A DNA stretch of 28,438 bases from a virus, in IMG/VR virus record IMGVR_UViG_3300027759_000339, positions 1 through 28,438 of that record; one strand, 5' to 3'. The notes under the pieces were generated by a model that saw only the letters and a program-made list of their open reading frames with translations, was not told the DNA's origin and ran no database searches. Each line of letters opens with the position of its first letter. Positions within the stretch are counted from its first letter, which is position 1. The translations under genes were made by a program, and so were the position numbers. This document shows, piece after piece, positions 4,085-28,438 of the stretch.

Positions 4085-4092
4085 TATTTATA
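4085..4092 (+). promoter_or_regulatory. TATTTATA motif before the exported-protein operon
   Basis: Exact TATTTATA followed by G, 4 bases before the ATG at 4097. If it is a -10-like promoter element, the transcript would be leaderless or nearly so. Confidence 0.45.
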
Positions 4093-4096
4093 GAAT

Positions 4097-4609
4097 ATGA
4101 AAAAAGTACCTCTCTCCACTTTTTTGATACTGGTACTATGTGTACTAATATCTGGTTTTAGTACAGTTGCTCAGACTGTCTGTGTATCAAATGTTGACAA
4201 TAAAATTAAAATAGGAAAGTTTACCGGCAATAGAAATTTTGCTTTCGGGGTAAAAAATATTTTTCAAGAAATATTACAAGATAAAAATTTGGACATTGTG
4301 GAAAGTCCTGAATCTGCCGATTACACAATCAGTGCAGAGATTCTATACTTTGATGTTAATAGAACAAAACGTAACATATCCGTATTTCATTCAGACGTTG
4401 AGGAAACATTGGTTGTTATTCGTGGGGTGATAAAAAACAAAGAAGGAAAGAAGATAAAAGAATATGTGGCTGAAGAATCCAGTACGGAAGTTTCAACATC
4501 AACAATAATAACCGGTGAGGCGAGTGACAAAATAAATCAACAAGCACTATCGTCTTCAATTAAAAAAACATGTCAAACATTAATTAACAAATTAACAGAA
4601 AAACTATGA
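4097..4609 (+). CDS. Exported protein of unknown function, possibly CsgG-like fold
   Basis: A 170-residue protein with a signal peptide (MKKVPLSTFLILVLCVLISG, cut near AQ at 25-26). The mature part starts with a short strand and a helix (FAFGVKNIFQEILQDKN), then ESADYTISAEILYFDVNR, a second strand pair (LVVIRGVIKNKEGKKIKEY) and an amphipathic C-terminal helix. This order resembles the CsgG / GNA1162 type of periplasmic or outer-membrane protein (helix, 'adyti.g.i' strand, strand pair, final helix), but similarity is by eye only. It is the first gene of a tightly coupled operon: its stop overlaps the next start as ATGA. The TATTTATA motif lies 4 bases upstream. Confidence 0.7.
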   Translation: MKKVPLSTFLILVLCVLISGFSTVAQTVCVSNVDNKIKIGKFTGNRNFAFGVKNIFQEILQDKNLDIVESPESADYTISAEILYFDVNRTKRNISVFHSDVEETLVVIRGVIKNKEGKKIKEYVAEESSTEVSTSTIITGEASDKINQQALSSSIKKTCQTLINKLTEKL

Positions 4610-6228
4610 AAAAACTATTAGTATCTCTCTCATTAATACTGATGTCTTTGACATCATTTGGTCAATTGATTATTAACCAAGAAGTAACTAACTCTAAACC
4701 TTATAGGGTTGGTGATACACTAACTGTAAGATATAACGTTGTCAAAGGGACCACTAACCCTAGATACCTTTGGATGCGTTATCAATACTCAAACAAACAC
4801 TTACAAAAATTAGGTGCTACTGTATTCTCACAAGGACAGACCGCACAAAACTTTGAAGCAACTTGGCCAAACTATATGTTTACACAAAATCCTGTAATTG
4901 GAGTTGGTGAGTTGGATAAACAATATGGTTCAACACCTTGGAACTATACCGCAAACAACGATTGGATAGCAAAGCAATTTACAACACAAAGAGCTGATGC
5001 GGTAATTGATGGTTTATGGGCAACTGAGAAGTTTATCTTATTAGAAAACTCAACATATCAAGGAATACACAAATTGGATTTAGCAACAGCAAACGGAACA
5101 AATGATGCGGCAATCACACCAATTGGTTCTCAAGTTCTTCAATTATCATTTGCAGATGCGGATGTAAAACACGTTTCCGCATTTAGAGTAAAGGTAGCAT
5201 ACCCAACTAATTTTGATGTTACTTCATTATCCGTTCTAATTCAACCGTTGAATACAAATGGAACTACTAATTTTACGGCACCACAGATAGCAAAAAAACC
5301 ATTGAATTCAGCGGGAATTGCTGATTTTGAACAATTTAATATTGGTGATAAATTTGGGGTATATATTGTTCCAACTACGGGAGCTTCTTACTTAAATAAT
5401 GTAGTAACTGTTACCGATGCTTATAGAGCATTTTTGGCAGTAACCGATGTTGGATTAAATGGTACATCATCTGTATTTCAATATCCCACAATAGAAAGGG
5501 CAATTGGTAATGTAACAATTGGTGATGGTGATTTTAACAACAATGATGCTTACTATCTATTTGCACATATTTTAGGACAAGATGTTGCTTCAAAAGCAAA
5601 TATAACAAGACAAGGAGCAAACCCATTACAATTTATATCTGTAAAACAATCTGCGTTTCCAACTTTTGCGGCTGCAGCAACCAACAATTCTGTTACTATA
5701 GCATCGGCAAATCAAACGGAATTATTCTCATATGCGTTTAGTGGTGACTTAGACTTCTCTCACTCATCTAATCCGGGTAATCCAATAGTAAATAGTGTGG
5801 GTGGGCAAGGAACAATGAATAGAACAATAGCAAATAAAGGGATATATTCAAATCAATTAGTGGGAACTGCAACATTGAGTTTATCATCTAAAATTGAAAA
5901 TAATAAAGTTATATTAAGTGGTAATTTATCACAAGAAGGATTAGCGGGTTTGGAAGTCATAATGAAATATGACAATTCTAAATTAACATTAGATGGTATT
6001 GTATTTGATGCGGGTGCGTCAATAACTAACTTCTCAACAGATAAAGATGGTAGATTAACATTTGGTTCTATGGACCAAATTAATAAAGCAAGAATCAAAA
6101 CCGGTACACCTTACAAATTAACTTTTACGTCAAACGTTCCATTAACTAATACGGCGGGTTTATTCTACACTGAATTGGCGGATGCTGTTGATGGAAAAGG
6201 AAATAAGATTGGATTAAATGTGGAGTAA
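4606..6228 (+). CDS. Secreted cohesin/dockerin-like surface protein
   Basis: A 540-residue protein. The signal peptide MKKLLVSLSLILMSLTSFG ends before Gln20. Residues about 21-170 form a beta-rich N-terminal domain (PYRVGDTLTVRYNV). A dockerin-like calcium loop lies at 306-324 (GDGDFNNNDAYYLFAHILG). About 420-538 is a cohesin-like beta domain (LEVIMKYDNSKLTLDG ... SMDQINKARIKTGTPYKLTF). The C-terminal 300 residues are paralogous to the next gene product, sharing TDAYRAFL.VTDVGL / GDAYLAFQELSDRGL. Known cohesins and dockerins bind each other with calcium on cell surfaces. Here both types occur in one protein, so self-association or pairing with its neighbour is possible. Start overlaps the previous stop (ATGA) and its stop overlaps the next start (TAATG). 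Confidence 0.75.
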   Translation: MKKLLVSLSLILMSLTSFGQLIINQEVTNSKPYRVGDTLTVRYNVVKGTTNPRYLWMRYQYSNKHLQKLGATVFSQGQTAQNFEATWPNYMFTQNPVIGVGELDKQYGSTPWNYTANNDWIAKQFTTQRADAVIDGLWATEKFILLENSTYQGIHKLDLATANGTNDAAITPIGSQVLQLSFADADVKHVSAFRVKVAYPTNFDVTSLSVLIQPLNTNGTTNFTAPQIAKKPLNSAGIADFEQFNIGDKFGVYIVPTTGASYLNNVVTVTDAYRAFLAVTDVGLNGTSSVFQYPTIERAIGNVTIGDGDFNNNDAYYLFAHILGQDVASKANITRQGANPLQFISVKQSAFPTFAAAATNNSVTIASANQTELFSYAFSGDLDFSHSSNPGNPIVNSVGGQGTMNRTIANKGIYSNQLVGTATLSLSSKIENNKVILSGNLSQEGLAGLEVIMKYDNSKLTLDGIVFDAGASITNFSTDKDGRLTFGSMDQINKARIKTGTPYKLTFTSNVPLTNTAGLFYTELADAVDGKGNKIGLNVE

Positions 6229-8162
6229 TGAGAAAACTGCTTGTTGTAATATTAATATTATTATCCGGTAGTATATCCATAGCACAATCCATTACACAAC
6301 CTGCTGCTAGAAAGTTTGAATTAAACGTAAGTGGGCAGGCGTGTAGTGGATTTGTTTTGAATGGATTTACATCTACTGATGTATTATTGGCATCGATAGG
6401 GTTTATCAATCCACCGGCAGGTACAACATTCAATTTAACCACAACAACGGGATTATCACCCGCATCAGGATTTACTTTAAGTGGTAATAAAAGTAAATTA
6501 GTTTTTACGGGTACAATGGCAAACATAAACAATGCATTGGCAACCTTAAAAATAAATACGGGTGCAACTGCAGGTAGTGTTCAAGTATCGGTTTCTGCAA
6601 CTATAAATCCAACGGGTTTTTATTATAATCCAATCAATGGACACTTTTACAAACCTGTAACATTAGGAGATACATATACAGGAGCAAGAGCAGCATCGTT
6701 ATTATCAACATTCAAAGGGCAAAGAGGTTATTTGGTAACAATTACTTCTGCCGATGAAAATTCTTTTATATTTGTTAATGTTCCCCAAGCTAACATATGG
6801 TTTGCAGCAACCGATGAAGTAACCGATGGAACTTGGGTAATTGATGCAGGACCTGAAAAAGGAACCGTAATGAAAACATCGAATGGGCAAACTGCCGGAA
6901 ACAGACCTGGTGTATATAACAACTGGGCAGGTGGTGAACCCAATGGATACAATCATAGTGAGGATTATGCGGTAACAAACTGGAGTGGTCAATCAACGTG
7001 GAATGATTTATCAAACAATTGGAATAATCCCTATATAATTGAATATGGAACTTGGAGTAATCCCGATTCACAAACATTTACTGATTTCTATTCAGCAAAT
7101 GTAATAAATCCCATAGATGTTCCATCATCAAAAGTTAATTTTTATTTTGGTGGTAATATAAATCCATCTCAATGGTCTATAAAAGCATATACCGCAAATG
7201 GTGTAACTCCTGTTAGTACAACCACGGGTTTAACCTTGGGAACAAATGGCAGTGTAGTTAATACGAGTGATTTTGTTAAAAGTAAAACCGATATGTTTAT
7301 ATACCTATCTAAACTATCATCAACCACATTAACAAATCTATATGGAAGTGTACTAACAATTGGCGATGCTTATTTGGCATTTCAAGAGTTATCCGATAGG
7401 GGATTGACCGGAACTGAAAGTAAAGCATTTACAAGTGGAGTACAATTCTTAAACGGAGATGTTGATGGTAATAATGTATTTAACGAAATAGACTCATATA
7501 AAATACTACAACACGTAATCGGCGGTACTCAAATAGTTTCTACTTGGAGTGAAAGTGATTTATTTAGATTTGTAAAAAAATCTACGTTTGATGGTATAAC
7601 CAAATCAAATTGGGCAACAACAAATACACCATATTCGGCAATTTATCCTTTGGCGGTTAACGCAACTATAAATGATTATGTGTACGATGTGGTGGTGGCA
7701 TTAAAGGGTGATGTAAACCTTTCACATACAATAGCACAAAATACACCGGCGACTCAAAGTACAAATCGCGCCATGAGTTTAACCACACCAATGGAAGTAT
7801 CTACATACGTATTAAGTGAAATGATAGATGGTAAAGTTGTGGTTACTATCAAAGTTAATACATTGGGACAATTACTAAAAGGGATTCAGTTAAAGTTAAA
7901 CTATGATGGTGATATTTTAAAGTACGAAAGTACCGAATATACAACTTCAGGTAATCCTATAAATTTTTCAAATGATATTGGTAACTACATAAGTTTTGGT
8001 TCTTTGATATATAATAGTAATGGACTATTAAATAATAATACAGAATATAAATTAATATTTACACCAAAAGAAACCATAACAAATACAATTGGATTAACAT
8101 CTATCGAAGGAATCGACGCTATAAATGTGGGCGGCTCAACTCTTAAAATTAAAAACTTATAA
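6228..8162 (+). CDS. Secreted C-type lectin + dockerin/cohesin-like surface protein
   Basis: A 644-residue protein. Signal peptide 1-20 (SGSISIAQ). Residues about 35-125 form a beta-domain typical of bacterial adhesins (FTGTMANINNALATLKINTG). Residues 131-274 are a C-type lectin domain with the hallmark GYLVTITSADENSF, NNW, E237-P238-N239 and W258-N259-D260. EPN plus WND is the calcium- and mannose-type binding signature. A dockerin-like loop begins at 410 (GDVDGNNVFNEIDSYKI), and about 510-640 is a cohesin-like domain. Likely role: calcium-dependent binding of a glycan at the host surface or on other cells. It could instead be a virion adhesin, but the signal peptide makes a host-envelope location more likely. 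Coupled at both ends by TAATG overlaps. Confidence 0.85.
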   Translation: MRKLLVVILILLSGSISIAQSITQPAARKFELNVSGQACSGFVLNGFTSTDVLLASIGFINPPAGTTFNLTTTTGLSPASGFTLSGNKSKLVFTGTMANINNALATLKINTGATAGSVQVSVSATINPTGFYYNPINGHFYKPVTLGDTYTGARAASLLSTFKGQRGYLVTITSADENSFIFVNVPQANIWFAATDEVTDGTWVIDAGPEKGTVMKTSNGQTAGNRPGVYNNWAGGEPNGYNHSEDYAVTNWSGQSTWNDLSNNWNNPYIIEYGTWSNPDSQTFTDFYSANVINPIDVPSSKVNFYFGGNINPSQWSIKAYTANGVTPVSTTTGLTLGTNGSVVNTSDFVKSKTDMFIYLSKLSSTTLTNLYGSVLTIGDAYLAFQELSDRGLTGTESKAFTSGVQFLNGDVDGNNVFNEIDSYKILQHVIGGTQIVSTWSESDLFRFVKKSTFDGITKSNWATTNTPYSAIYPLAVNATINDYVYDVVVALKGDVNLSHTIAQNTPATQSTNRAMSLTTPMEVSTYVLSEMIDGKVVVTIKVNTLGQLLKGIQLKLNYDGDILKYESTEYTTSGNPINFSNDIGNYISFGSLIYNSNGLLNNNTEYKLIFTPKETITNTIGLTSIEGIDAINVGGSTLKIKNL

Positions 8163-9055
8163 TGAAAAAGTTAATACTCATATTATTATTACTTTGTGTT
8201 GGATTTGCATCAAACGCTCAGATACAAGTACCTGACACATTACAACTATCACCAAAAGAATTGTTTGGAGAAAGTAGTGATTGGAACAATGTGGGTATAT
8301 TACAATCCTATGTTAATTTTTCAAAAGATATACTTTCATCATCAAACCTTTCGGTAGGTATTATTGGAAGACAGGTATCTACAACCCTTAATTTGGGGTA
8401 CAATAAATCATCTTTGAATGGTCAATGGGGAAATACATTTGCAGTATCAATAAACCCTATATGGAAGTATTATGGTGCGGGTTATGGTTTAAGTAAAAAT
8501 ATAGAAAAAAGAACAACCACATTACAATCATTTTATTCGACCGATTTTGATTTTCAAAAAGATATTACATTATCATTTATAGATGTATTCCGAACTAAAA
8601 AATGGGGAACATTTGGATATAGTTTAACTGCATCAAAAACATTTTGGGGACAATCCGAAGGTGAGTGGGAAGGAAAATATACAGTAGATGCGGATGGTAA
8701 TTTTTTAGATTTAATATACCCAATAGAACCTGCAGCGTCTGAACTTACTTATAGAGGTATGGCGATGTACACATATACATTGAAAACAAAGAGAGTGAAC
8801 ATATCACCACAGATATTTGCAATGAGTGATATATACAAAGTATTCAAAAATGGTGGTACATCCGATTTTTCATACTTTGATGACTTCAATTTGGACTTAT
8901 ATTATGGAGTATCTATGGATTGGAAAATAACTAAAAGATTTGTATTAAACACTAATATCAGATATAATACAACTTGGGATAAATTAAGTGAATCGGTTGG
9001 ATATAAAAAGAGTAACCCAATTCTATTTATGATAGGAACAAACTTTCAATTTTAA
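8162..9055 (+). CDS. Outer-membrane beta-barrel protein
   Basis: A 297-residue protein. The signal peptide MKKLILILLLLCVGFASNA is followed by Gln. The mature part alternates hydrophobic and polar residues with many Gly, Tyr and Trp (TFGYSLTASKTFWGQ) and ends in TNFQF, the terminal aromatic typical of outer-membrane barrels. Length fits about 12-14 strands. The last 120 residues align by eye with the C-terminus of the 13805-15370 protein (ISPQIFAM / LSPQIFVI; WKITKRF / YKISKRF; ILFMIGTNF / NFLIGSRM). It could anchor or export the two cohesin-like proteins encoded just before it. It does not show clear PorP/SprF features. Coupled by TAATG to both neighbours. Confidence 0.75.
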   Translation: MKKLILILLLLCVGFASNAQIQVPDTLQLSPKELFGESSDWNNVGILQSYVNFSKDILSSSNLSVGIIGRQVSTTLNLGYNKSSLNGQWGNTFAVSINPIWKYYGAGYGLSKNIEKRTTTLQSFYSTDFDFQKDITLSFIDVFRTKKWGTFGYSLTASKTFWGQSEGEWEGKYTVDADGNFLDLIYPIEPAASELTYRGMAMYTYTLKTKRVNISPQIFAMSDIYKVFKNGGTSDFSYFDDFNLDLYYGVSMDWKITKRFVLNTNIRYNTTWDKLSESVGYKKSNPILFMIGTNFQF

Positions 9056-9402
9056 TGAAAAATATTAAAATTATTTTTTTATGTTTTATGGTTGGTTTTG
9101 TGATTTCTTGTCAAAACGAGGATATAGTGGAACCGCAAATAATTGATATTTTCAAAGTAGAACAATCCACCTTATCAAACAAAAGTGAAATTCGTTTTAA
9201 TGTAGAAAAAGAGGGAGTGTATATTATAACAATGATAGATAAAAACACCAATCAAGTTATTAGCAGAGAAAAAATAAAATGTGTTATAGGGAATAATAAT
9301 ATAAAAATTTACGCAAAAACAATACCTAGCCGATATTTATATTTAAGGTTGGAGGATAGTTTTAATAATCAATTAGGTAATACAATAATAACAATAAAAT
9401 AA
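9055..9402 (+). CDS. Surface lipoprotein, paralogue of the next gene
   Basis: A 115-residue lipoprotein: hydrophobic start, then VISC with the lipidated Cys19, followed by QNED. Acidic residues at +3/+4 after the Cys match the export signal that sends lipoproteins to the cell surface in Bacteroidota, so surface exposure is inferred. The mature domain is a small beta sandwich (SEIRFNVEKEGVYIITMIDK ... NNNIKIYAKTIP) that aligns with the next product (NVKTENAGTYVVKILN ... NNLLKIYTKALP). The TAATG overlap with the barrel gene means the two are translated together. Function unknown; it probably associates with the barrel or the cohesin-like proteins. Confidence 0.75.
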   Translation: MKNIKIIFLCFMVGFVISCQNEDIVEPQIIDIFKVEQSTLSNKSEIRFNVEKEGVYIITMIDKNTNQVISREKIKCVIGNNNIKIYAKTIPSRYLYLRLEDSFNNQLGNTIITIK

Positions 9403-9416
9403 AAAAAACAAAAAAA

Positions 9417-9788
9417 ATGAAAAAAGTAATTGGATTCTTGATGGTAGTTTTAACAGTAATTAGCTGTAATAGTGAAGACATGTTAGTACCGGCACCAACC
9501 GAAGTAACTGAAAAATTACAAATAATGGGTAACGTAGGAATTAAAGTGGAAACACCATTCGTAAAAGAAGAAGTGGCAATGAACGTAAAAACCGAAAATG
9601 CCGGTACATATGTAGTAAAGATATTAAACATTGCAAATAAGTCAGTATCAAAAGAAGAGGTAACAATAAAAGCAGGAAACAATCTATTAAAGATTTACAC
9701 AAAAGCTTTACCATCTTCAGCATATAGAATTGGTCTATTCGATTTAGAGGGAAACTTACTTGGAATATCAGATTTTAATAAATTATAA
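9417..9788 (+). CDS. Surface lipoprotein, paralogue of the previous gene
   Basis: A 123-residue lipoprotein with lipobox VISC and lipidated Cys17, followed by NSED, again the acidic surface-export pattern. The mature part contains the same small beta domain as the preceding gene (AGTYVVKILNIANKSVSKEE, then GNNLLKIYTKALPSS), so the two are a tandem duplication that has diverged considerably. It lies 14 bases after the previous stop. It has an extremely A-rich leader (AAAAAAAACAAAAAAAATG), the usual initiation context for Bacteroidota, which do not depend on Shine-Dalgarno pairing. It closes the tightly packed operon that starts at 4097. Confidence 0.75.
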   Translation: MKKVIGFLMVVLTVISCNSEDMLVPAPTEVTEKLQIMGNVGIKVETPFVKEEVAMNVKTENAGTYVVKILNIANKSVSKEEVTIKAGNNLLKIYTKALPSSAYRIGLFDLEGNLLGISDFNKL

Positions 9789-9815: not shown

Positions 9816-10130
9816 ATGTCAGAAGAATCACAAAATGAAGGAACAATGTCAGGATTGGTAAAAACACTAATCGGGACAGTTGGCACGATAGTAACGGCAG
9901 GAGGAGCTTGGTTAGGTTCTCAAATGTTCGGTGGTGGTGACCAACCGGCAGCGGCACCTGCAGCGGCACCCGTAATAAACATTACTCAAAATCAAGCACA
10001 ACAACAATCTGCGGGTAAAACTGTAATCATCAACAAAGGTGGTGGACAAGCTGCGCCTGCTCAAGCTACAGCACCAAAACCTAAGAAAAAGGAAGGTGAT
10101 GAGTTTAAGGAAGAAGCACCTAAGTGGTAA
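9816..10130 (+). CDS. Small membrane-associated protein with Ala/Gln-rich tail
   Basis: A 104-residue protein. Residues 11-38 are one Gly/Ala-rich hydrophobic segment (LVKTLIGTVGTIVTAGGAWL). The segment 45-60 is Ala/Pro-rich. A Gln/Asn-rich run follows (INITQNQAQQQ), then a Lys/Pro/Glu-rich tail ending in KW. No signal peptide. It is the first of three small membrane proteins between the surface operon and the coiled-coil gene. This is the kind of cluster in which phages place holin-like genes, but no lysis function can be shown. The leader is again A-rich (CTAAAAAAACAAAAAAAG). Confidence 0.65.
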   Translation: MSEESQNEGTMSGLVKTLIGTVGTIVTAGGAWLGSQMFGGGDQPAAAPAAAPVINITQNQAQQQSAGKTVIINKGGGQAAPAQATAPKPKKKEGDEFKEEAPKW

Positions 10131-10147
10131 TTTAATAAAAACATAAT

Positions 10148-10783
10148 ATGGGACAACAACAAGAAAACACGGGATTTAGAGACCTTCTAAACCAGATGAT
10201 GACTCGCAGATGGAACATGACACTTATTGTGTTGCTAACATTTATGGGTACGGTATTTGGTATCGGTGGAGCTATTGTACTTAAAGCAGAAATTAATGGA
10301 GCTTGGAAAGAATTACTATTATTATTACTTGGAGCCTTTATTGGTTCTTATGGTAAGATTGTAGATTATTGGTTCTCAGATACAGATAAAGATAAAATGT
10401 TAGTTCAAAAGATGGACGAAGAAGACGGTATATCACTTTCAAACACCAACGATAAAGATGGTGAAAGTAAAGCAGCTTATAGTCCAATCGTACCAGAATC
10501 ATTTACAGAAGCAATATCAAATTCACAGTTTGAAAATGAGACTGAATTTATACCCACAGTATCAAAATCGGAAGAAAAACAAACCAAAGTAGGTGTTGAA
10601 GTCGATGAAGATGGTGACGGTAAAATGGATGGTTTAGATTTTAATGGTGATGGAGTAATTGACGAGTATTTTGACCACCGTAATTGTCAACACGTATGGG
10701 GTGACTCAGATGGTGACGGTGATGAAGAATGTCTAATTTGTGGTAAGATAAAAGATATCGATACCACAGATATGGAAGGGTAA
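10148..10783 (+). CDS. Two-helix membrane protein with calcium-loop and zinc-like tail
   Basis: A 211-residue protein. Two membrane helices at about 24-46 (TLIVLLTFMGTVFGIGG) and 54-72 (ELLLLLLGAFIGS) sit behind a short N-terminus. A flexible acidic linker follows. Residues 153-172 hold DxDxDG-type loops (DEDGDGKMDGLDFNGDGVID) like those of EF hands, dockerins or thrombospondin type 3 repeats. The end has a CxH...CxxC cluster (C180, H182, C195, C198) around a second DSDGDGDE loop. Two helices suggest a holin or a membrane sensor. The metal-loop tail is unusual for a holin and might make activity calcium- or zinc-dependent. Family not recognised. It is cotranscribed with the genes at 9816 and 10813. 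Confidence 0.7.
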   Translation: MGQQQENTGFRDLLNQMMTRRWNMTLIVLLTFMGTVFGIGGAIVLKAEINGAWKELLLLLLGAFIGSYGKIVDYWFSDTDKDKMLVQKMDEEDGISLSNTNDKDGESKAAYSPIVPESFTEAISNSQFENETEFIPTVSKSEEKQTKVGVEVDEDGDGKMDGLDFNGDGVIDEYFDHRNCQHVWGDSDGDGDEECLICGKIKDIDTTDMEG

Positions 10784-10812: not shown

Positions 10813-11064
10813 ATGAAATTCAAAGAATGGGTAATTGAAATCTTTAAAGATGAAAGAGGTTCAATTTCAGTAAAACCGGTAATCGCAATGATTGGTGCAT
10901 TATTTTTATGCGTTACGATGACGTTAAATTCATTTTCTCACGCAGATTTTGCACCGTCACCTGAATTGGTGAATGCGGTGATGTTGATAACAGGCATTGG
11001 GATGGGTGCCGACACCTTGGATAAGTTCTCACACAAAAAGAAAGAGGACGAAATGGAGGGTTAA
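10813..11064 (+). CDS. Small two-helix membrane protein (holin-like)
   Basis: An 83-residue protein with a charged N-terminus (KEWVIEIFKDERGSISVKP), a first hydrophobic helix at 22-42 (VIAMIGALFLCVTMTL), a short loop and a second helix at about 53-71 (LVNAVMLITGIGMGADTL). A highly charged C-terminus follows (HKKKEDEMEG). Size and layout fit class II holins (two helices, charged tail), but no endolysin gene is visible nearby, so the lysis role is only a suggestion. It is the last gene before the terminator at 11069-11093. The leader is AC-rich (AACAAACACAAAACACAAAT) without a Shine-Dalgarno site. Confidence 0.65.
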   Translation: MKFKEWVIEIFKDERGSISVKPVIAMIGALFLCVTMTLNSFSHADFAPSPELVNAVMLITGIGMGADTLDKFSHKKKEDEMEG

Positions 11065-11122: not shown

Positions 11123-12304
11123 ATGTCAGAAGAGCAAAAACAAGAAAACGAAGAGAACGGACCCGAGATTGGTTTTAATACCGGTGGTGGTCAAATAACC
11201 GCAGAACCTCAAGAAACTGTAAGTGTTGAGGATGAAGTTTCAGTAAGTGCTGAAATTGAAGGTATAACTTTAACTGCCGAAGCAAGTGCTGAAGCACACG
11301 CAAGTGCGGGTGTTGAAGTTACTGATACATCAGTTGCAGCGACTGCTGAAGTTGGTGTTAGTGCCGAAGCTGGTGTTGGTGCCGAAACAACAATTGGTGA
11401 TGTTGACATTGAAGCGGAAGCTCATGTAAGTGCAGAAGCTGAGGCGTCAGCCAATGCAAGTGCCGGATGGGATGGACATAACGCAAGTGTTACTGCAGAA
11501 GTGGAAGCAGGTGCAAGTGTTGAAGCGGGTGCAAGTGTTAGTGTTGAGGTTGATGGGGTTACAATTACACAAGAAGGTCACGCAGGTGCTGAAGCTGAAG
11601 CATACGCAGGTGGAAGTGCTCAAATCGGTGAAGATGGTGCAAGTGTACATGCGGGAGCGATTGCGGGTGTTAGTGTAGGTGCGGGTGGTTCGACAGGTGC
11701 ATATGACGAAAGTGGTAACGGTGGAAGTGTAGGTGCTGAAGTTAGTATTGGAGCACAAGTTGGTGGTGAGGTTGAGGGTGGTGCAACTATGGAAGACGGT
11801 GTTGCTACAATTGATATTAGTGGTGAAGTAGCGTTAATCGCAGGTGTTGAAATTGATTTGAGTGTTAGTGTTGATACTAAACCAATACAAGAAGCGGCAG
11901 TGGATGCATATGAAGAAAGTGAAAAATTAGCTATACAAGCGGCCGAGGAAGCTGAAAGAATTGCACAAGAACAAGCTGCTGTTGCACAACAAGCGTTAGA
12001 AGACGCAGCAAGAGAAGCCGATAGAATTGCTCAAGAACAAGCTGCTGTTGCACAACAAGCATTAGAAGAAGCGGCAAGAGAAGCTGATAGAATTGCAAGA
12101 GAACAAGCTGCGGCAGCACAAAGAGCTGCAGAAGACGCAGCAAGGGAAGTAGATAGAATTGCAAGAGAACAAGCTGCGGCGGCGCAAAGAGCAGCAGAAG
12201 ATGCGGCAAGAGCAACACAGAAAGCTGCTGAAGATGCAGCAAGAGAAGCTGAAAGAATTGCAAAAGATGTGGGTAGAAAAATGGACCCACGTAGATGGTT
12301 CTAA
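11123..12304 (+). CDS. Repetitive Ala/Glu/Gly-rich fibrous protein with coiled-coil C-terminus
   Basis: A 393-residue protein without signal peptide. Residues about 30-250 are an imperfect repeat rich in Ala, Glu, Val, Ser and Gly with alternating small and beta-prone residues (EAHVSAEAEASANASAG; GASVEAGASVSVEVDG), suggesting a beta-helix or fibre. Residues about 255-385 are helical, with four 22-residue repeats (EADRIAQEQAAVAQQALEDA type). As two 11-residue units each, these suit a long coiled coil. The end is basic (KDVGRKMDPRRWF). Possible roles are a virion fibre or an intracellular scaffold. Absence of a signal peptide argues against export with the neighbouring envelope proteins. The upstream terminator and TATTTATT box suggest its own transcript. 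Confidence 0.75.
   Translation: MSEEQKQENEENGPEIGFNTGGGQITAEPQETVSVEDEVSVSAEIEGITLTAEASAEAHASAGVEVTDTSVAATAEVGVSAEAGVGAETTIGDVDIEAEAHVSAEAEASANASAGWDGHNASVTAEVEAGASVEAGASVSVEVDGVTITQEGHAGAEAEAYAGGSAQIGEDGASVHAGAIAGVSVGAGGSTGAYDESGNGGSVGAEVSIGAQVGGEVEGGATMEDGVATIDISGEVALIAGVEIDLSVSVDTKPIQEAAVDAYEESEKLAIQAAEEAERIAQEQAAVAQQALEDAAREADRIAQEQAAVAQQALEEAAREADRIAREQAAAAQRAAEDAAREVDRIAREQAAAAQRAAEDAARATQKAAEDAAREAERIAKDVGRKMDPRRWF
11948..12211 (+). repeat. Four tandem 66-base repeats (22 residues each)
   Basis: Units start at 11948, 12014, 12080 and 12146, each beginning GAAGCx/GAAGTA and encoding E-A/V-E/D-R-I-A-x-E-Q-A-A. Spacing is exactly 66 bases. Copies 1-2 and 3-4 are the closest pairs. A partial fifth unit follows. 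Confidence 0.9.
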
Positions 12305-12399: not shown

Positions 12400-13119
12400 A
12401 TGAAAAAATTATTAGTATTCTTGTTTGGTGTTTTACTAAGCAATGTTGTGGTCGCTCAAACTGTGGGTTCCACAAAGACAGAACAATATAAAGCATCGTT
12501 TGAAACCGCAATTGACATTTCAAAATATATGGACTATGAAGGACCACAAATTCCTATTCAAATATTAAAATGTGGTATATCCGATGAAATGTATGAAATG
12601 TATCCTGAGTTAAAGGAGAAAAGAGTTGGTCTTGGTGTTGCCAATATTTCAATGGAATATTTGGAAAATCTTAATCGTTTTAAATTTACCGAAGATAAAA
12701 CGGAAATTAAGAATCGTATGGTGAAGCAATTTCAAGCATCTCAAGCAGGTATATCAGAAAACAAATTAGATGGTAGAGGTAAAATTAACTTGGCAAAATA
12801 CTTTGTAACAATTGAATGTTATGATTATTCTGTAAGTGAAGATGAGACTATCAATCTAAAAGATGGTGTTAAGAATATGATGGTTACTCGTTTGGGTCTT
12901 CAAGTTAGATTTACTGACGCAGAAACGGGTGTTGTATTTGGGGCATCAGGATTAGGTGAAGCTAAAACAGTTAGAGAATTAACATTATTATCTGACGCAA
13001 CAGTTGACCCGGTTAAATTTAATCAATCGACAATTTCAATTTCAACAAAGAAAGCACTTGATATTGCATGTGCAAGAATTTTAGATAGAATGATTAAGAA
13101 AGGGATTTTTACAAAGTAA
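12400..13119 (+). CDS. Exported CsgG-like protein (curli-secretion channel family)
   Basis: A 239-residue protein with signal peptide MKKLLVFLFGVLLSNVVVA before Gln20. The mature part follows the CsgG plan: a strand (RVGLGVANISMEYLENLNRF), helix-rich region with TEIKNRMVKQFQ, then AKYFVTIECYDYSV, a long strand (TRLGLQVRFTDAETGVVFGA) matching the CsgG 'lrlvd..tGevl.s' motif, and a final helix (KKALDIACARILDRM). CsgG forms an outer-membrane export pore for curli. Soluble relatives exist, and no lipobox Cys is seen here, unlike E. coli CsgG. CsgG-like genes have been reported in some other T4-like aquatic phages (recalled, not checked). It might act as an outer-membrane pore for the phage's exported proteins or for lysis. 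It is one base from the next start. Confidence 0.65.
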   Translation: MKKLLVFLFGVLLSNVVVAQTVGSTKTEQYKASFETAIDISKYMDYEGPQIPIQILKCGISDEMYEMYPELKEKRVGLGVANISMEYLENLNRFKFTEDKTEIKNRMVKQFQASQAGISENKLDGRGKINLAKYFVTIECYDYSVSEDETINLKDGVKNMMVTRLGLQVRFTDAETGVVFGASGLGEAKTVRELTLLSDATVDPVKFNQSTISISTKKALDIACARILDRMIKKGIFTK

Positions 13120-13120
13120 C

Positions 13121-13642
13121 ATGAAAGTAATTATATTAACAGAATCACAGGTTGACCGTTTAATATCTGAGCAGATATTATTACCTGGAATTTTTGGTGG
13201 TAGTGAAGTACAAAAAACGGCAATAAAAGCTACCGCACAATATCTTAATATGGACCCACATACACGTAATGCGATATTGAGCATTGGTGCCTATTTTATA
13301 CCATATGTTGGTCCCGCATTATCCACGGGTATTCAGGCGTACGATGCGTCACTATATTTAAAAGAAGGTAAAAATAAAGAGGCGGGATTAACATTATTTT
13401 TAATGTGTTTACCTTTAATTGGTTCTGTTGTTCAAAAAATTCCAGGTGTAAAACAATTGGGTACAAAAGGAATGTCATTATTATCTAAAAAGATTATAAG
13501 TAATGGTGCATTATCGCCATTAGAAAATAGTGTTGTATCATCAATTAAATCTAATACAAAGTTAATAGATATTGCAAAACAGCAAATAAATAGTAGATTA
13601 GCCAATGCCGGTTATGATGCAATTGCGAGTGCTAAAAAATAA
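13121..13642 (+). CDS. Hydrophobic, possibly virion-associated protein
   Basis: A 173-residue protein. The N-terminus (MKVIILTESQVDRLI) is of a type that recurs in structural proteins of this phage group. Residues about 48-70 and 88-115 contain hydrophobic, Gly/Pro-rich segments (ILSIGAYFIPYVGPALSTG; LTLFLMCLPLIGSVVQKIPG) separated by YLKEGKNKEAG. This resembles the linker segments that precede toxin domains in polymorphic toxins and also membrane-penetrating virion proteins. A Ser/Lys-rich tail follows. There is no signal peptide. Function is unknown; a virion protein that contacts the membrane is my best guess. It is placed one base after the CsgG-like gene and 9 bases before the small membrane gene. 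Confidence 0.65.
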   Translation: MKVIILTESQVDRLISEQILLPGIFGGSEVQKTAIKATAQYLNMDPHTRNAILSIGAYFIPYVGPALSTGIQAYDASLYLKEGKNKEAGLTLFLMCLPLIGSVVQKIPGVKQLGTKGMSLLSKKIISNGALSPLENSVVSSIKSNTKLIDIAKQQINSRLANAGYDAIASAKK

Positions 13643-13804: not shown

Positions 13805-15370
13805 TTGAAAAAGTTAAGAAATTTTTTAAGTGTATTATTCATATTTTGTCTAGCTTCCAAGGCTAACGGGCAAACATTTACACAAACGTTTGTGGATAAA
13901 TGTAGCGGTGAGATAAAAATAGCCACAACCACATATGTCAATGGAAGCGCATACGTATCTTTTTATGACCAAATGAGAGTGTTTACCCCCGCGGAAGTAA
14001 CAAGCGGAGTCATGCAAATTTGGTTGCAATCGGTTTATATTGCATATTCAACAACGGGTTGTCCAACAAATCAGGTTGTACAGCAAACGGTTCAACAAAC
14101 AGTTAATCAGGCAGTAGCTGCTGCCGCTCAACAAGCGGCAACGCAGGCGGCAAGTGCAGCCGCGGCTCAAGCAGCAAGTGCGGCAGCTAGTAATGCTGCA
14201 TCATCTGCCGCAAGTAGTGCGGCGTCATCCGCAGCAAGCAACGCTGCATCATCCGCAGCAAGCGGTGCAGCATCGTCAGCAGCAAGTGGTGCAGCTAGTT
14301 CGGCAGCAAGTAGTGCGGCAAGTTCGTCAGCTTCATCTGCGGCAGGTAGTTCAGCAAGTTCGGCAGCATCATCTGCAGCAACACCACCACCTGCGGCGAC
14401 TCCATCATCGTCGAGTAGCTCATCGGCACCGGCGCCATCATCGTCTAACAGTAGTGGTTCATCGTCGGGTTCTTCAGATAATAAAAGCACTTCTTCATCA
14501 TCATCTTCTGAAAGTAAATCTGAGACTAAGAGTGAAACCAAATCGGAAAGTAAATCAGAATCAAAATCTGAGAGTAAATCAGAGGAAAAGAAAGAAGAGT
14601 CTAAATCAGAATCTAAAAAAGAAGAAAAGAAAGAGGAGTCCAAAGAAGAAAAAAAGGAAGAAAAGAAAGAGGAGAAAAAAGAAGAAAAGAAAAAAGAATC
14701 AAAGCAAGCCCCAATAAATCCATTACTAATAGCTTCTGATTTATCAGCCGTACAGACATCGAGTGACCAATGGTCAGCAATTTTGTCAATTGGTGTGAGT
14801 CGTTCTTCATTGATGGGTGATAAAAGTTATTCATTAAATTCAATGACTTGGAGTAATCTTAAACAATTTGCATTGAGTGGTGGTATAACCAAAATGAATT
14901 TAGACGATAAGGGGTCGTTAACTTCTATCAATTCATACTCATTAACTACAGCTTATTTATCTGGTAGTTTAATGGCTTTAGGTGGATTTACCAAAATTAC
15001 GCCAAATCCTAAATTGGGAACTTATGGTTATAATTTGGGTTTAGTTACATTATTATTACAAAATACCGAAGGTGGATATGATGTTAGTTTGAGTAATTCA
15101 TCTGTTGTATTTTGGACTAAACCATATCCACAAAGTAAGAAACTGACATTATCACCACAAATATTTGTAATTCCTCCTGGAATGAATGTTAACACTAAAA
15201 CGGGTGAAGTAACTTATGGTAACAGTATCGGTGTATTAGCGGGTACTTCTGTTGATTATAAAATAAGTAAAAGGTTTGGTTTTAGCTTTAACTATAAAAT
15301 TAACGCATCAACGGCACTTGGAGCGCCCGCATTAAGTAATTTCTTGATAGGCTCAAGAATGATGCTTTAA
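13805..15370 (+). CDS. Outer-membrane barrel on a long Ser/Ala and Lys/Glu stalk (TTG start)
   Basis: A 521-residue protein. The start is TTG because the codon directly before it is TGA; the ATG at 13801 is in another frame. Signal peptide 1-22 ends ASKANG before Gln. Residues 23-100 form a small domain with a Cys pair (C33, C86). Residues 105-235 are almost only Ala and Ser (AASSAASSAASNAASS), followed by about 235-300 of Lys/Glu/Ser repeats (KSESKSESKSEEKKEE). Residues about 305-521 are a beta-barrel with aromatic and Gly-rich strands, homologous by eye to the 8162-9055 barrel. The stalk would form an extended, charged periplasmic or surface linker between the N-terminal domain and the barrel. 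Function unknown. Confidence 0.75.
   Translation: MKKLRNFLSVLFIFCLASKANGQTFTQTFVDKCSGEIKIATTTYVNGSAYVSFYDQMRVFTPAEVTSGVMQIWLQSVYIAYSTTGCPTNQVVQQTVQQTVNQAVAAAAQQAATQAASAAAAQAASAAASNAASSAASSAASSAASNAASSAASGAASSAASGAASSAASSAASSSASSAAGSSASSAASSAATPPPAATPSSSSSSSAPAPSSSNSSGSSSGSSDNKSTSSSSSSESKSETKSETKSESKSESKSESKSEEKKEESKSESKKEEKKEESKEEKKEEKKEEKKEEKKKESKQAPINPLLIASDLSAVQTSSDQWSAILSIGVSRSSLMGDKSYSLNSMTWSNLKQFALSGGITKMNLDDKGSLTSINSYSLTTAYLSGSLMALGGFTKITPNPKLGTYGYNLGLVTLLLQNTEGGYDVSLSNSSVVFWTKPYPQSKKLTLSPQIFVIPPGMNVNTKTGEVTYGNSIGVLAGTSVDYKISKRFGFSFNYKINASTALGAPALSNFLIGSRMML
14117..14704 (+). repeat. Low-complexity coding repeat (Ala/Ser then Lys/Glu/Ser)
   Basis: Degenerate tandem repeats of GCAGCAAGT/GCATCATCT-type codons followed by GAAAAGAAAGAAGAG-type codons. 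Synonymous variation (GCA, GCG, GCC, GCT; AGT, TCA, TCT, TCG) argues that protein composition, not recent slippage alone, is being kept. Local GC is clearly higher in the Ala/Ser part than in the flanks. Confidence 0.85.
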
Positions 15371-19533: not shown

Positions 19534-19541
19534 TATTTATA
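19534..19541 (+). promoter_or_regulatory. TATTTATA motif
   Basis: Exact copy, preceded by TTTG, 13 bases before the ATG at 19555. Confidence 0.4.
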
Positions 19542-20802: not shown

Positions 20803-20810
20803 TATTTATA
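20803..20810 (+). promoter_or_regulatory. TATTTATA motif
   Basis: Exact copy followed by GG, 34 bases before the ATG at 20845, in the 71-base gap between the nucleotidyltransferase and acidic-protein genes. Confidence 0.4.
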
Positions 20811-24889: not shown

Positions 24890-24897
24890 TATTTATA
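24890..24897 (+). promoter_or_regulatory. TATTTATA motif before the terminase gene
   Basis: Exact copy directly behind the terminator and 4 bases before ATG 24902. A transcript starting just downstream would have essentially no leader. Confidence 0.45.
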
Positions 24898-24901
24898 GTA
24901 T

Positions 24902-26686
24902 ATGAATAGTAAATTAGAACAACTAAAAGAATATGCTCGTATCATTAAAGATACGCCATATGCGTTAAGAACGTATCTACAAACATACGATAACACGCAA
25001 AAGAAATTCGTTCCGATGAACCTATTTCCTGACCAATTACAACTAATTCAGGATTACGAAAATTACAACGAAAATATCACAAAGAAATATCGTCAGGCCG
25101 GTGTTACAACCGTAACTGCCGCTTGGTTATCAAAGAAATTACAATTTGCTAAACCCGAGAATCCTGAAAGAGTTCTTATTATTGCTAATAAGAAGGATAC
25201 CGCTGTAGAGATGGCAAATAAGATTAGAAACTTCTTAGACCAATGGCCTGAATGGATTAATGTGGGATTTTCGCCAGACAAAAACTCTGAAAGTAGATTT
25301 AGATTAAATAACGGTTCGGAAGTTAAAGCTGTTGCAACATCTGCGGATGCACTTCGTGGTTTTACACCAACCGTACTTGTATTTGACGAAGCTGCCTATA
25401 TTGAAGCGGGTGATGATTTTTGGGCAGCATCAATGGCATCCTTATCCACCGGTGGTAAGATTATTCTTATATCAACACCAAATGGTTATGACCCAATTTA
25501 CTATGGTGTGTATGACCAAGCAATTCGTGGCATCAATGATTTCCATATAACAGATTTAAGGTGGTTTAAGGACCCCCGTTATACCAAAGACTTACGATGG
25601 GTCAAATGTCAAGATATATGTCATTACATGTTAAACAGAGAGCAATACGACGATAATGATGTTGTTCTTTATGAGTTTGATATGGACAATTATCAAGAAA
25701 TTGAAGAACAAGGTTATAAACCATATTCATCTTGGTTTGAATCTATGTCTAAAAAGTTCAAATACGATAGACGTAAGATATCACAAGAATTAGAGTGTGA
25801 CTTCTTAGGGTCAGGAGATGGTGTTATACCCGGATTTGTTCAAGAGAATATTTCTAAGAACATGATACGTGTTCCTATTGAAAAATACATGCAAGCTACA
25901 TTGTGGCAATGGAAGGAACCAATTGAGGGTCACCGTTATATTATGGGTGTCGATGTTAGTAGAGGTGATAGTGAAGACTTCTCAGCAATTAATATCATTG
26001 ATTTTGATGAAAGAGAACAAGTACTTGAATATGTGGGTAAAATACCGCCAGATGACTTGGCACAAATTGCATACAAGTGGGGTATAATATATGGTAACTC
26101 ATTTATTGTTATTGATATCACCGGTGGTATGGGTGTTGCCACATCAAGAAAATTACAAGAATTAAATTATAAGAATTTATACATTGACGGTATTAACACT
26201 CAAAACATTTGGGAGTATAATGCTAAAGCGATGGAGAAAATACCAGGACTTAATTTTAACAACAAGAGAACACAGATTGTTGCCGCATTTGAGGAGCAAT
26301 TAAGAAAAGGATTTGCAGTTAGGTCAAGTAGGTTATTAAATGAACTTAATACGTTTGTTTATATGAACGGAAGACCTGACCACATGAAAGGTTCACACGA
26401 TGATGCTATCATGAGTATGTCAATGGCACTATATGCCGGTGATTTATGTTTTAATCAATTACAAAAGACTGAATCGGTTAATAAAGCAATGATTGAATCG
26501 TGGACCATGTCTGAAAGAACATATGAACCACAAAAGTCGTTTTATTCTTATGGTGGGTCTTTTGACCAAATAAGTTCTATGGGTATGGACGGTAATAATT
26601 CAATGTATGGTGGTAATAGCAATCAACAAGCGGGTAGAGAGGCGTACATGGAATATTCGTGGTTATTTAATGGGAGAAGAAAATAA
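24902..26686 (+). CDS. Terminase large subunit (ATPase and nuclease motor of DNA packaging)
   Basis: A 594-residue protein, full length for the gp17 type. The ATPase half has an adenine motif (LFPDQLQLI, 41-49), a P-loop position KYRQAGVTT (62-70) lacking the usual Lys before Thr, Walker B VLVFDEAA (D162, E163) and coupling motif IILISTPNG (187-195). The nuclease half has its acidic triad in IMGVDVSRGD (D351), VIDITGG (D405) and GSHDDAIMS (D500/D501). It cuts concatemeric DNA and drives it through the portal. The portal gene follows after 53 bases. The small terminase subunit is not recognisable in this window. A terminator and TATTTATA motif stand directly upstream. Confidence 0.95.
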   Translation: MNSKLEQLKEYARIIKDTPYALRTYLQTYDNTQKKFVPMNLFPDQLQLIQDYENYNENITKKYRQAGVTTVTAAWLSKKLQFAKPENPERVLIIANKKDTAVEMANKIRNFLDQWPEWINVGFSPDKNSESRFRLNNGSEVKAVATSADALRGFTPTVLVFDEAAYIEAGDDFWAASMASLSTGGKIILISTPNGYDPIYYGVYDQAIRGINDFHITDLRWFKDPRYTKDLRWVKCQDICHYMLNREQYDDNDVVLYEFDMDNYQEIEEQGYKPYSSWFESMSKKFKYDRRKISQELECDFLGSGDGVIPGFVQENISKNMIRVPIEKYMQATLWQWKEPIEGHRYIMGVDVSRGDSEDFSAINIIDFDEREQVLEYVGKIPPDDLAQIAYKWGIIYGNSFIVIDITGGMGVATSRKLQELNYKNLYIDGINTQNIWEYNAKAMEKIPGLNFNNKRTQIVAAFEEQLRKGFAVRSSRLLNELNTFVYMNGRPDHMKGSHDDAIMSMSMALYAGDLCFNQLQKTESVNKAMIESWTMSERTYEPQKSFYSYGGSFDQISSMGMDGNNSMYGGNSNQQAGREAYMEYSWLFNGRRK

Positions 26687-26728: not shown

Positions 26729-26736
26729 TATTTATA
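26729..26736 (+). promoter_or_regulatory. TATTTATA motif before the portal gene
   Basis: Exact copy, 3 bases before ATG 26740, in a gap of 53 bases after the terminase stop. Confidence 0.45.
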
Positions 26737-26739
26737 TAA

Positions 26740-28438
26740 ATGGCAGAACAAAATTATACAGTTTTCCAAAAATTGACCAAAATGTTTGGATATCCGGGGA
26801 AAACAACTCCCGACCAAGCGCCGTCGTTTAGTTTTTCAAAAGATGAGCTTTTAAAGACCGATAGTAAAGAAGAATATGAAAAAGCGTTATTACAAGCTCA
26901 ACAAAGTCAATATATTGCTGACAAATGGGCTAAACTTGACCAATCATTATATAATCAATCGGTTTATTACGAACCAAATAGATTAGCGGCATATTATGAT
27001 TACGAATCAATGGAATTTACACCGGAGATTTCGGCAGCATTGGATATCTATGCTGAAGAATCAACAACGATGTCTGAAAAGGGTGAGATATTAACAATAT
27101 TCTCTGAATCAACAAGAGTAAAAAATATTCTTTCTGACTTATTCAATAACGTTTTAGATGTTAATACCAACTTACAAATGTGGACCAGAGGTTTGTGTAA
27201 GTATGGAGATAACTTTGTATACTTAAAGATTGACCCTGAAAAAGGTATTATTGGGTGTCAACAATTACCAAATATTGAAATTGAAAGATTAGAAGGTGCA
27301 CCAAGTAAAGTTGCAGGACAAGCAAGAGATATTAAAATGCCGTCACGTGAATTGAGATTTCATTGGAAAAACAAAGATATGGAATTCCAAGCTTGGGAAG
27401 TTGCACACTTTAGAATCTTAGGTGACGATAGAAAATTACCATATGGCACTTCTATGTTAGATAAGATTAGACGTATTTGGAAACAATTACTTCTTGCTGA
27501 AGATGCTATGTTAATTTACAGAACATCAAGGGCACCTGAAAGACGTATTTTTAAAATATTCGTGGGTAACATGGATGATAAAGATATTGAAGCTTATGTA
27601 CAACGTGTTGCAAGTAAATTTAAGAGAGACCAAATATCAGACCCACGTAATGGTCAGGTAGATATGAGATATAATCAAATGTCTGTAGACCAAGATTATT
27701 TTATCCCTGTACGTGACCCCGCTGCTCCAAGTCCAATCGACACATTACCCGGTGCACAGAACTTAGGTGAGATTGCGGATATTGAATACATCCAAAAGAA
27801 ATTATTGGCTGCTTTACGTATACCAAAAGCATTCTTGGGTTTTGAAGAAGTTGTGGGTGAAGGAAAAAGTTTAGCATTAATGGATATTCGCTTTGCTCGT
27901 ACAATTAACAGAATTCAAAAATCTGTAATTCAAGAGTTAAATAAGATTGCATTAGTACATTTATATCTTTTAGGTTTAGAAGATGAATTAAATAATTTTA
28001 CTTTAGGTTTAACTAACCCATCGGCACAATCTGATTTATTGCGTATTGAACAATGGAAAGAAAAGGTAACATTGTATAAAGATGCAACATCTGACCAATC
28101 TCAATTAGGTATTCTACCCGTATCACACACATGGGCTAAGAAAAACATTCTTGGTATGAGCGACTCTGAAGTATTACTTGATTTACAACAACAACGCCTT
28201 GAAAGAGCTGTTGGTTTTGAGTTAATGAACACAAGTCAGTTAATCATTAAACGTTCGGGCATCTTTGATAATGTGGACGCTAAGTACGGTATTCCTGAAG
28301 AGGAGAGAGAGAAAGTTGAAGCAGGAGCTGCGGGCGCTGAAGGTGCCGAAGGTGGAATGGGAATGGATATGGGTGGCGGTGGAGCCGCACCTGCAGAAGC
28401 ACCGGCAGCCGGAGCGGAGCCATTAAGTGAATCTACAT
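26740..28438 (+). CDS. Portal protein, gp20-like (partial, runs off right edge)
   Basis: ATG 26740, with 566 codons in the window and no stop. The gp20-type portal pattern is clear: FTPEISAALDIYAEESTT, then LDKIRRIWKQLLLAEDAMLI, SRAPERRIFKIFVGNM, LLAALRIPKAFLGFEE, and GKSLALMDIRFARTINRIQK. Portals form the twelve-subunit ring at one capsid vertex that holds the tail and docks the terminase. The start is preceded by the TATTTATA motif and not by a Shine-Dalgarno site. The visible C-terminus becomes Gly/Ala/Glu-rich (GAEGAEGGMGMDMGGG), a low-complexity extension also seen in neighbouring acidic proteins. It follows the terminase as in T4-like late gene order. Confidence 0.95.
   Translation, partial: MAEQNYTVFQKLTKMFGYPGKTTPDQAPSFSFSKDELLKTDSKEEYEKALLQAQQSQYIADKWAKLDQSLYNQSVYYEPNRLAAYYDYESMEFTPEISAALDIYAEESTTMSEKGEILTIFSESTRVKNILSDLFNNVLDVNTNLQMWTRGLCKYGDNFVYLKIDPEKGIIGCQQLPNIEIERLEGAPSKVAGQARDIKMPSRELRFHWKNKDMEFQAWEVAHFRILGDDRKLPYGTSMLDKIRRIWKQLLLAEDAMLIYRTSRAPERRIFKIFVGNMDDKDIEAYVQRVASKFKRDQISDPRNGQVDMRYNQMSVDQDYFIPVRDPAAPSPIDTLPGAQNLGEIADIEYIQKKLLAALRIPKAFLGFEEVVGEGKSLALMDIRFARTINRIQKSVIQELNKIALVHLYLLGLEDELNNFTLGLTNPSAQSDLLRIEQWKEKVTLYKDATSDQSQLGILPVSHTWAKKNILGMSDSEVLLDLQQQRLERAVGFELMNTSQLIIKRSGIFDNVDAKYGIPEEEREKVEAGAAGAEGAEGGMGMDMGGGGAAPAEAPAAGAEPLSEST

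Follow-up and report, generated by a model that had tools for sequence, protein, structure and literature searches.

A conserved phage cassette of proteins predicted to be exported

What use does a large myovirus have for a run of genes whose products all carry export signals? The question is raised by a 28,438-base viral record (IMG/VR IMGVR_UViG_3300027759_000339; the whole stretch is called the window here), which contains a T4-type terminase gene at 24902 and a T4-type portal gene at 26740 and is therefore a piece of a large myovirus genome. Our analysis gives good support to a phage cassette for surface display that includes a lectin, and we think it probable that its products form a glycan-binding complex on the outside of the infected Bacteroidota cell.

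The original prediction, made from the sequence alone, described an operon of six consecutive genes between 4097 and 9788, each encoding a signal-peptide or lipobox protein, with overlaps at four of the five junctions. All six open reading frames are present (Table 1), all six products begin with a signal sequence, and the last two have a lipobox. One junction is a 4-nt overlap (ATGA), three are 1-nt overlaps (TAATG), and the fifth is a gap of 14 nt. The proposed limits were too narrow, as the conserved unit reaches about 15370.

Table 1. Coordinates of cassette genes, domains and motifs in the window
Feature	Position	Strand	Basis or remark
Promoter-like element TATTTATA	4085..4092	+	12 nt ahead of the first start codon
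Signal-peptide protein, relative of YajG/TraT-type envelope proteins	4097..4609	+	In nearly all cassettes, either leading or relocated
Secreted protein, degenerate dockerin-like region, C-terminal cohesin (about 5881-6225)	4606..6228	+	Homology to the 6228 cohesin
Secreted lectin protein: N-domain, C-type lectin domain, dockerin loop, cohesin	6228..8162	+	Lectin_C, AlphaFold2, Foldseek
C-type lectin domain (CTLD); EPN 6936-6944, WND 6999-7007	6612..7052	+	Invariant site residues
Dockerin-type calcium loop DVDGNNVFNEID	7458..7493	+	Residues 411-422 of the 6228 product; canonical
Cohesin domain of the lectin protein	7791..8159	+	Foldseek, alignments; not in T9SS-tail relatives
Predicted outer-membrane barrel, variable member	8162..9055	+	Homology to the C-terminus of the 13805 product
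Lipoprotein, acidic after the lipobox (C-QNEDI), DUF3244/T9SS-tail-like domain	9055..9402	+	Pfam matches of the family
Second lipoprotein of the same family (C-NSEDM)	9417..9788	+	Weak Por_Secre_tail match (0.0024)
Small protein without signal peptide, possible membrane segment, core member	9816..10130	+	In nearly all cassettes with visible flanks
Predicted inner-membrane protein, DxDGDG repeats and CxxC-type tail	10148..10783	+	Hydropathy; most, not all, cassettes
Small predicted membrane protein, placement less consistent	10813..11064	+	Cassette comparison
CsgG-fold protein, most conserved cassette member	12400..13119	+	AlphaFold2 (mean pLDDT 77); PDB fold matches
Secreted protein, long Ala/Ser/Lys/Glu-rich stretch, predicted C-terminal barrel	13805..15370	+	Cassette comparison

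When gene order was compared in other phage genomes, as the original prediction had suggested, conserved content and a broadly kept order were found in about 200 related viral loci, which excludes chance. These loci were chosen by similarity and include near copies; they come from scans with the 6228 product, the 12400 family and gp017 of Flavobacterium phage immuto (40, 80 and 80 loci, a few of which share contigs). The cassette is common, with at least 590 confirmed relatives from a scan with one member. Naming families by the start of the gene in the window, the order is the 4097 family, the cohesin/dockerin protein, the lectin, an optional 8162 barrel, the lipoproteins, 9816, 10148, 10813, 12400 and 13805; elsewhere, 13805 is followed by the lectin gene and in some cases by the 4097 gene as well. 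No cassette protein had an informative match in PHROGs.

A cellular origin of the genes was considered and rejected. The A3 profile was found in only one of 60 genomes drawn from the family of G001, a MAG already holding a phage-like contig, and a genome scan with the CsgG-fold family matched two MAG contigs only. Together with the type IX secretion system (T9SS) sorting tails of relatives and the Flavobacterium host of immuto, these two contigs point to Bacteroidota as the host phylum, and the cassette is probably carried by large T4-like viruses that infect aquatic Bacteroidota.

Lectin, cohesin and dockerin modules

The lectin domain claimed by the original prediction, with intact EPN and WND residues, is borne out by several lines of evidence. 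The 6228 product scores 24.3 bits against Pfam Lectin_C (cut-off 22.6), its profile matches solved C-type lectins (E 6e-11), and its AlphaFold2 model (mean pLDDT 82) matches both CTLDs (4wqq, E 6.5e-8, TMt 0.72) and cohesins in Foldseek. Residues E237, P238, N239, E245, W258, N259 and D260 are unchanged across 46 lectin homologues, and the CTLD is the most conserved domain, with a mean pairwise identity of 0.71. In mannose-binding protein the E-to-E spacing is 8, equal to that of the 6228 CTLD. The fold and the EPN/WND calcium-site residues are shared with animal C-type lectins such as CEL-I, mannose-binding protein and CD23; unlike these, the 6228 lectin is viral and is joined to dockerin and cohesin modules. 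We predict calcium-dependent sugar binding by the domain. One lineage's lectin protein (L157:6695-8386) has a Laminin_G_3 (ConA-like) domain besides the C-type lectin domain.

Cohesin-like domains had been proposed for both the 4606 and the 6228 products, and the predicted fold and intermediate homologues bear this out. The C-terminal halves of the two proteins are homologous (E 5e-15), and their cohesin domains align in hhalign at 99.1%. Although a Pfam scan of the window proteins gave no Cohesin match, intermediates reach that family: L049, a homologue of the 4606 product, scores 24.5 against a cut-off of 24.1, and immuto gp015 scores 36.7 bits. The predicted structure of the 6228 product matches solved cohesins in Foldseek (2jh2, E 4.4e-6; also 2xdh and 2w1n). 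A cohesin fold thus holds for the 6228 product at the level of the model and extends to the 4606 product by homology; a PDB sequence search with the 4606-family profile found no match.

A dockerin-like calcium loop had also been described as common to both proteins, and here the picture is mixed, the loop being canonical in the 6228 product and degenerate in the 4606 product. All 46 lectin homologues in the alignment have the loop pattern, as do almost all lectins of the immuto type. Lectin proteins have one canonical loop, the second having shrunk to a GDVN-like remnant, and with half of a classical dockerin clear, docking to a cohesin may not happen. The original prediction envisaged self-chaining through a cohesin and a dockerin in each protein. 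That arrangement is seen in the window's clade, whereas the majority of relatives have the lectin and dockerin on one protein and the cohesin on another that ends in a T9SS sorting domain, so docking between proteins fits better.

Two probable alternative surface anchors

The C-terminus of the cohesin protein divides the relatives into two types. Por_Secre_tail exceeds the Pfam cut-off in the 4606 homologues of L023, L029 and L036 and in immuto gp015, and was not found in the window proteins by the Pfam scan. Loci of the tail type have a lectin protein without cohesin and no lipoprotein, whereas the window's clade lacks the sorting domain and has one or two small lipoproteins instead. Among 126 distinct loci, 55 have a tail only, 68 have lipoproteins only, none has both, and three have neither; of the exceptions, L053 and L106 end near the cassette, and the third is L143. 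At L143:6946-7671, tblastn finds full-length, one-frame homology to the cohesin protein and the ORF is 136 aa, which indicates an internal stop (a pseudogene or a sequencing error).

In 69 loci, the cohesins without a tail equal the lipoproteins in number. Written as cohesin/dockerin proteins, T9SS tails and lipoproteins, the combinations are (2,0,2) in 42 loci, (1,0,1) in 16, (2,1,0) in 10, and (1,0,0) once, in immuto, where the 243-residue cohesin-tail protein was shorter than the length filter allowed. Each of three tail-bearing phage records has exactly one sorting tail, and four lipoprotein-type records of 111-336 kb have none. On the gene tree, supported branches force at least five switches of anchor type, a count that depends on a quickly built tree whose branches are long and whose search was not completed. 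The mutual exclusion of tail and lipoproteins suggests that they do the same job, probably surface anchoring. A tblastn search of named phages with the L029 sorting domain at E 0.1 gave no match, but it was insensitive and missed immuto as well.

The lipoproteins themselves may be distant kin of T9SS tails, a relationship that their Pfam matches suggest weakly: in the family (A8), 16 of 48 members match DUF3244 (best 2.9e-5) and four of 48 match Por_Secre_tail (best 0.0014). PDB sequence searches with lipoprotein profiles gave weak matches only, beginning at the signal sequence. The acidic stretch after the lipobox cysteine of the window lipoproteins is similar to the lipoprotein export signal SDDFE of F. 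johnsoniae (PMC5080379). Family-wide, a strict acidic pattern occurs in 23 of 64 and 0 of 17 distinct N-termini.

Conserved predicted envelope proteins

Homologues of the 12400 product are 52-95% identical. When its model was compared with the PDB, each of the top 21 matches was a CsgG or curli complex (best E 1.4e-6); TM reached about 0.5, the rmsd was about 10 Å, and the likeness is one of fold only. Pfam did not match the family to CsgG, and profile comparison showed no similarity to the CsgG of HTVC008M; for this reason we call the predicted structure CsgG-fold and not CsgG; a PDB sequence search with the family profile found nothing. A 13805 homologue adjoins or shortly follows the 12400 homologue in nearly all cassettes. 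The outer-membrane barrel proposed for the 8162 product is plausible from its signal sequence, terminal F and homology to the 13805 product, although it has no library match and its barrel is a deduction. As for the 4097 family, five of 10 homologues match Pfam Lipoprotein_16 (best 3.5e-6), and profile comparison detected no relationship with the 12400 family (6.9%).

A probable glycan-binding surface complex and its possible purposes

Read from the computed domains, conservation, sorting domains and mutual exclusion of anchors, the cassette would export its main proteins, dock them through cohesin and dockerin and bind glycans at the cell surface. The C-type lectin protein, by its dockerin loop, would be held by the cohesin protein. 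In most relatives, the cohesin protein would reach the surface through the host T9SS by means of its C-terminal sorting domain; in the window's clade, it might do so along with the small surface lipoproteins that replace this domain. The CsgG-fold outer-membrane protein, the barrel protein and the small inner-membrane proteins would form the conserved envelope part. The infected cell might be altered as a result, with changed adhesion partners or changed entry of other phages. The fuller version of this proposal is tentative, and we put it at somewhat below even chances: Bacteroidota phages would export their own cohesin by the host T9SS and use a cohesin-dockerin bond to fasten a phage C-type lectin to it, making a sugar-binding coat, with lipoproteins in place of the sorting domain in one clade.

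What such a coat is for is a matter of guesswork, with a change of adhesion (the capture of neighbours) and the masking of receptor glycans about equal; both are purposes inside surface display and not alternatives to it. Receptor masking or superinfection exclusion, in which the lectin would hide a glycan receptor on the infected cell and its debris from other phages or from the phage's own progeny, seems rather unlikely as the sole purpose. The lectin is surface-directed and the 4097 product weakly resembles TraT, the surface-exclusion protein of F-type plasmids (E 0.0016), but that match, at 18.6 bits, lies far under the 31-bit cut-off, and the lectin site is invariant in diverse phages while receptors usually differ by host. 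Alternatively, a sticky infected cell might keep neighbours or particles close to the site of lysis, as in the "sibling capture" proposed for pelagimyophage curli genes (PMC7029224). The combination of a CsgG fold with exported glycan-binding modules is in keeping with this, as are the PA14 and curlin repeats of HTVC008M and the second lectin-like domain of the L157 lineage; the CsgG-bearing phage Melnitz, however, gave no clumping (PMC9004378), and capture likewise strikes us as rather unlikely.

Two further explanations were weighed. The CsgG-fold protein and barrels might open the outer membrane during lysis, following the pinholin idea (PMC9004378), while the surface proteins would regulate this step. 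Of the 55 loci whose cassette is flanked by 3 kb or more on each side, 29 have an endolysin homologue no more than 3 kb away, and the cassette holds small membrane proteins. In L029, the endolysin homologue is a neighbour of the cassette with PG_binding_1 and GH19 domains and without a dockerin; an endolysin homologue of that type was not found in the window. A lysis device would also leave the lectin, cohesin, dockerin and T9SS tails unexplained, and we regard it as improbable. It is more doubtful still that these are virion or tail-fibre parts that bind host glycans. CTLD folds are known in phage receptor-binding proteins, yet the main products differ from cytoplasmically assembled proteins in bearing signal sequences, lipoboxes or, among relatives, T9SS tails, and immuto has its own tail fibre and spike genes distant from the cassette. 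The original reading, an exported phage operon for surface proteins that combines lectin, cohesin and dockerin modules with probable surface lipoproteins, is supported over an ordinary tail-fibre module.

Comparison with known systems

The statement that no phage system of this composition had been described was too strong. Immutovirus immuto (Flavobacterium phage vB_FspM_immuto, NC_055915), a cultured isolate, has a version of the cassette that is annotated gene by gene, two of its genes already bearing the names "lectin C-type" and "cohesin domain-containing". Its gp013 is a lectin-dockerin protein, gp015 a cohesin with a T9SS tail, gp016 a 9816 homologue, gp017 a 12400 homologue (54% identity), gp018 13805-like and gp019 4097-like; it differs from the window in having the lectin and cohesin on separate proteins, a T9SS tail and no lipoproteins. 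The immuto cassette occupies 10.5-16.4 kb beside replication genes, far from the genes for head, tail and spike, which lie at 97-149 kb. In the literature searched, we found no paper describing the immuto genes as a system and no earlier report of either a phage T9SS substrate or a phage cohesin-dockerin system. If our proposal is true, the cassette would be an example of a phage supplying a T9SS substrate and of viral cohesin-dockerin docking, and the virus could alter the infected cell's adhesion or its admission of other phages. The cultured phage and its Flavobacterium host make this directly testable.

The curli (type VIII) pore genes csgF and csgG of pelagimyophages and Melnitz are likewise found in T4-like aquatic phages, with a CsgG-type pore beside exported modules. 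There, Pfam identifies a true CsgG at 180 bits and CsgF is present too, in contrast to the 12400 family, and no cohesin, dockerin, CTLD or T9SS tail has been reported there. In the SAR11 phage HTVC008M, CsgF, CsgG and a protein with PA14 and curlin repeats share one operon, which may be a parallel, by analogy, of a possible glycan-binding module beside a CsgG pore. The latter protein, gp018 (L212:10638-11963), is annotated as hypothetical and adjoins csgF/csgG; published work, in contrast, describes pelagimyophages as without curli subunits. Roles proposed for the phage curli genes also include lysis timing (PMC9004378) and uptake. Should our reading be correct, the export or mounting of glycan-binding modules would be a concrete candidate answer to why aquatic T4-like phages have CsgG-type pores.

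Cellulosomal cohesin-dockerin pairs share the cohesin fold, the dockerin-type calcium loop and, as in many relatives, the separation onto different proteins. They differ in that the cassette has one canonical loop and not two, has no enzymes, is phage-borne and is known here from sequences and models. A cellulosome combines a scaffoldin with dockerin-bearing enzymes, and no glycoside hydrolase was found among the conserved cassette members scanned. Type A substrates of the Bacteroidota T9SS have the N-terminal signal peptide and C-terminal Por_Secre_tail shared by many relatives; here, by contrast, the substrates would be phage-encoded, and the window proteins are tail-less.

Expression class and genome context

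The element TATTTATA precedes not only the first cassette gene but also the terminase gene (by 12 nt) and the portal gene (by 11 nt). In the window it lies close upstream of several gene starts (4085-4092, 19534-19541, 20803-20810, 24890-24897 and 26729-26736). Among 8-mers over-represented upstream of genes in related contigs, ATATTTAT (107 of 917) and TATTTATA (106 of 917, against 7.0 expected) lead, at about 15-16 fold. For relatives of the 4097 gene alone, TATTTATA is found upstream of 11 of 49, against about 1.8 expected, a modest enrichment that we attribute to uncertain starts. It is likely a phage promoter element, and its distribution hints that the cassette and packaging genes may belong to one promoter class.

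Three minus-strand tRNA genes lie at 870-941, 994-1066 and 2809-2882; ARAGORN and Rfam identify Arg (tct) and Glu (ttc) genes, and the one at 870-941 was found by Rfam only. Within the cassette region, 11123-12304 encodes a low-complexity, repetitive Ala/Val/Glu-rich protein that only a few close relatives share. The product of 13121-13642 begins with MKVIILTESQVDRLISEQ, and like N-termini are found on a few unrelated proteins of relatives (four in all), possibly as a targeting leader.
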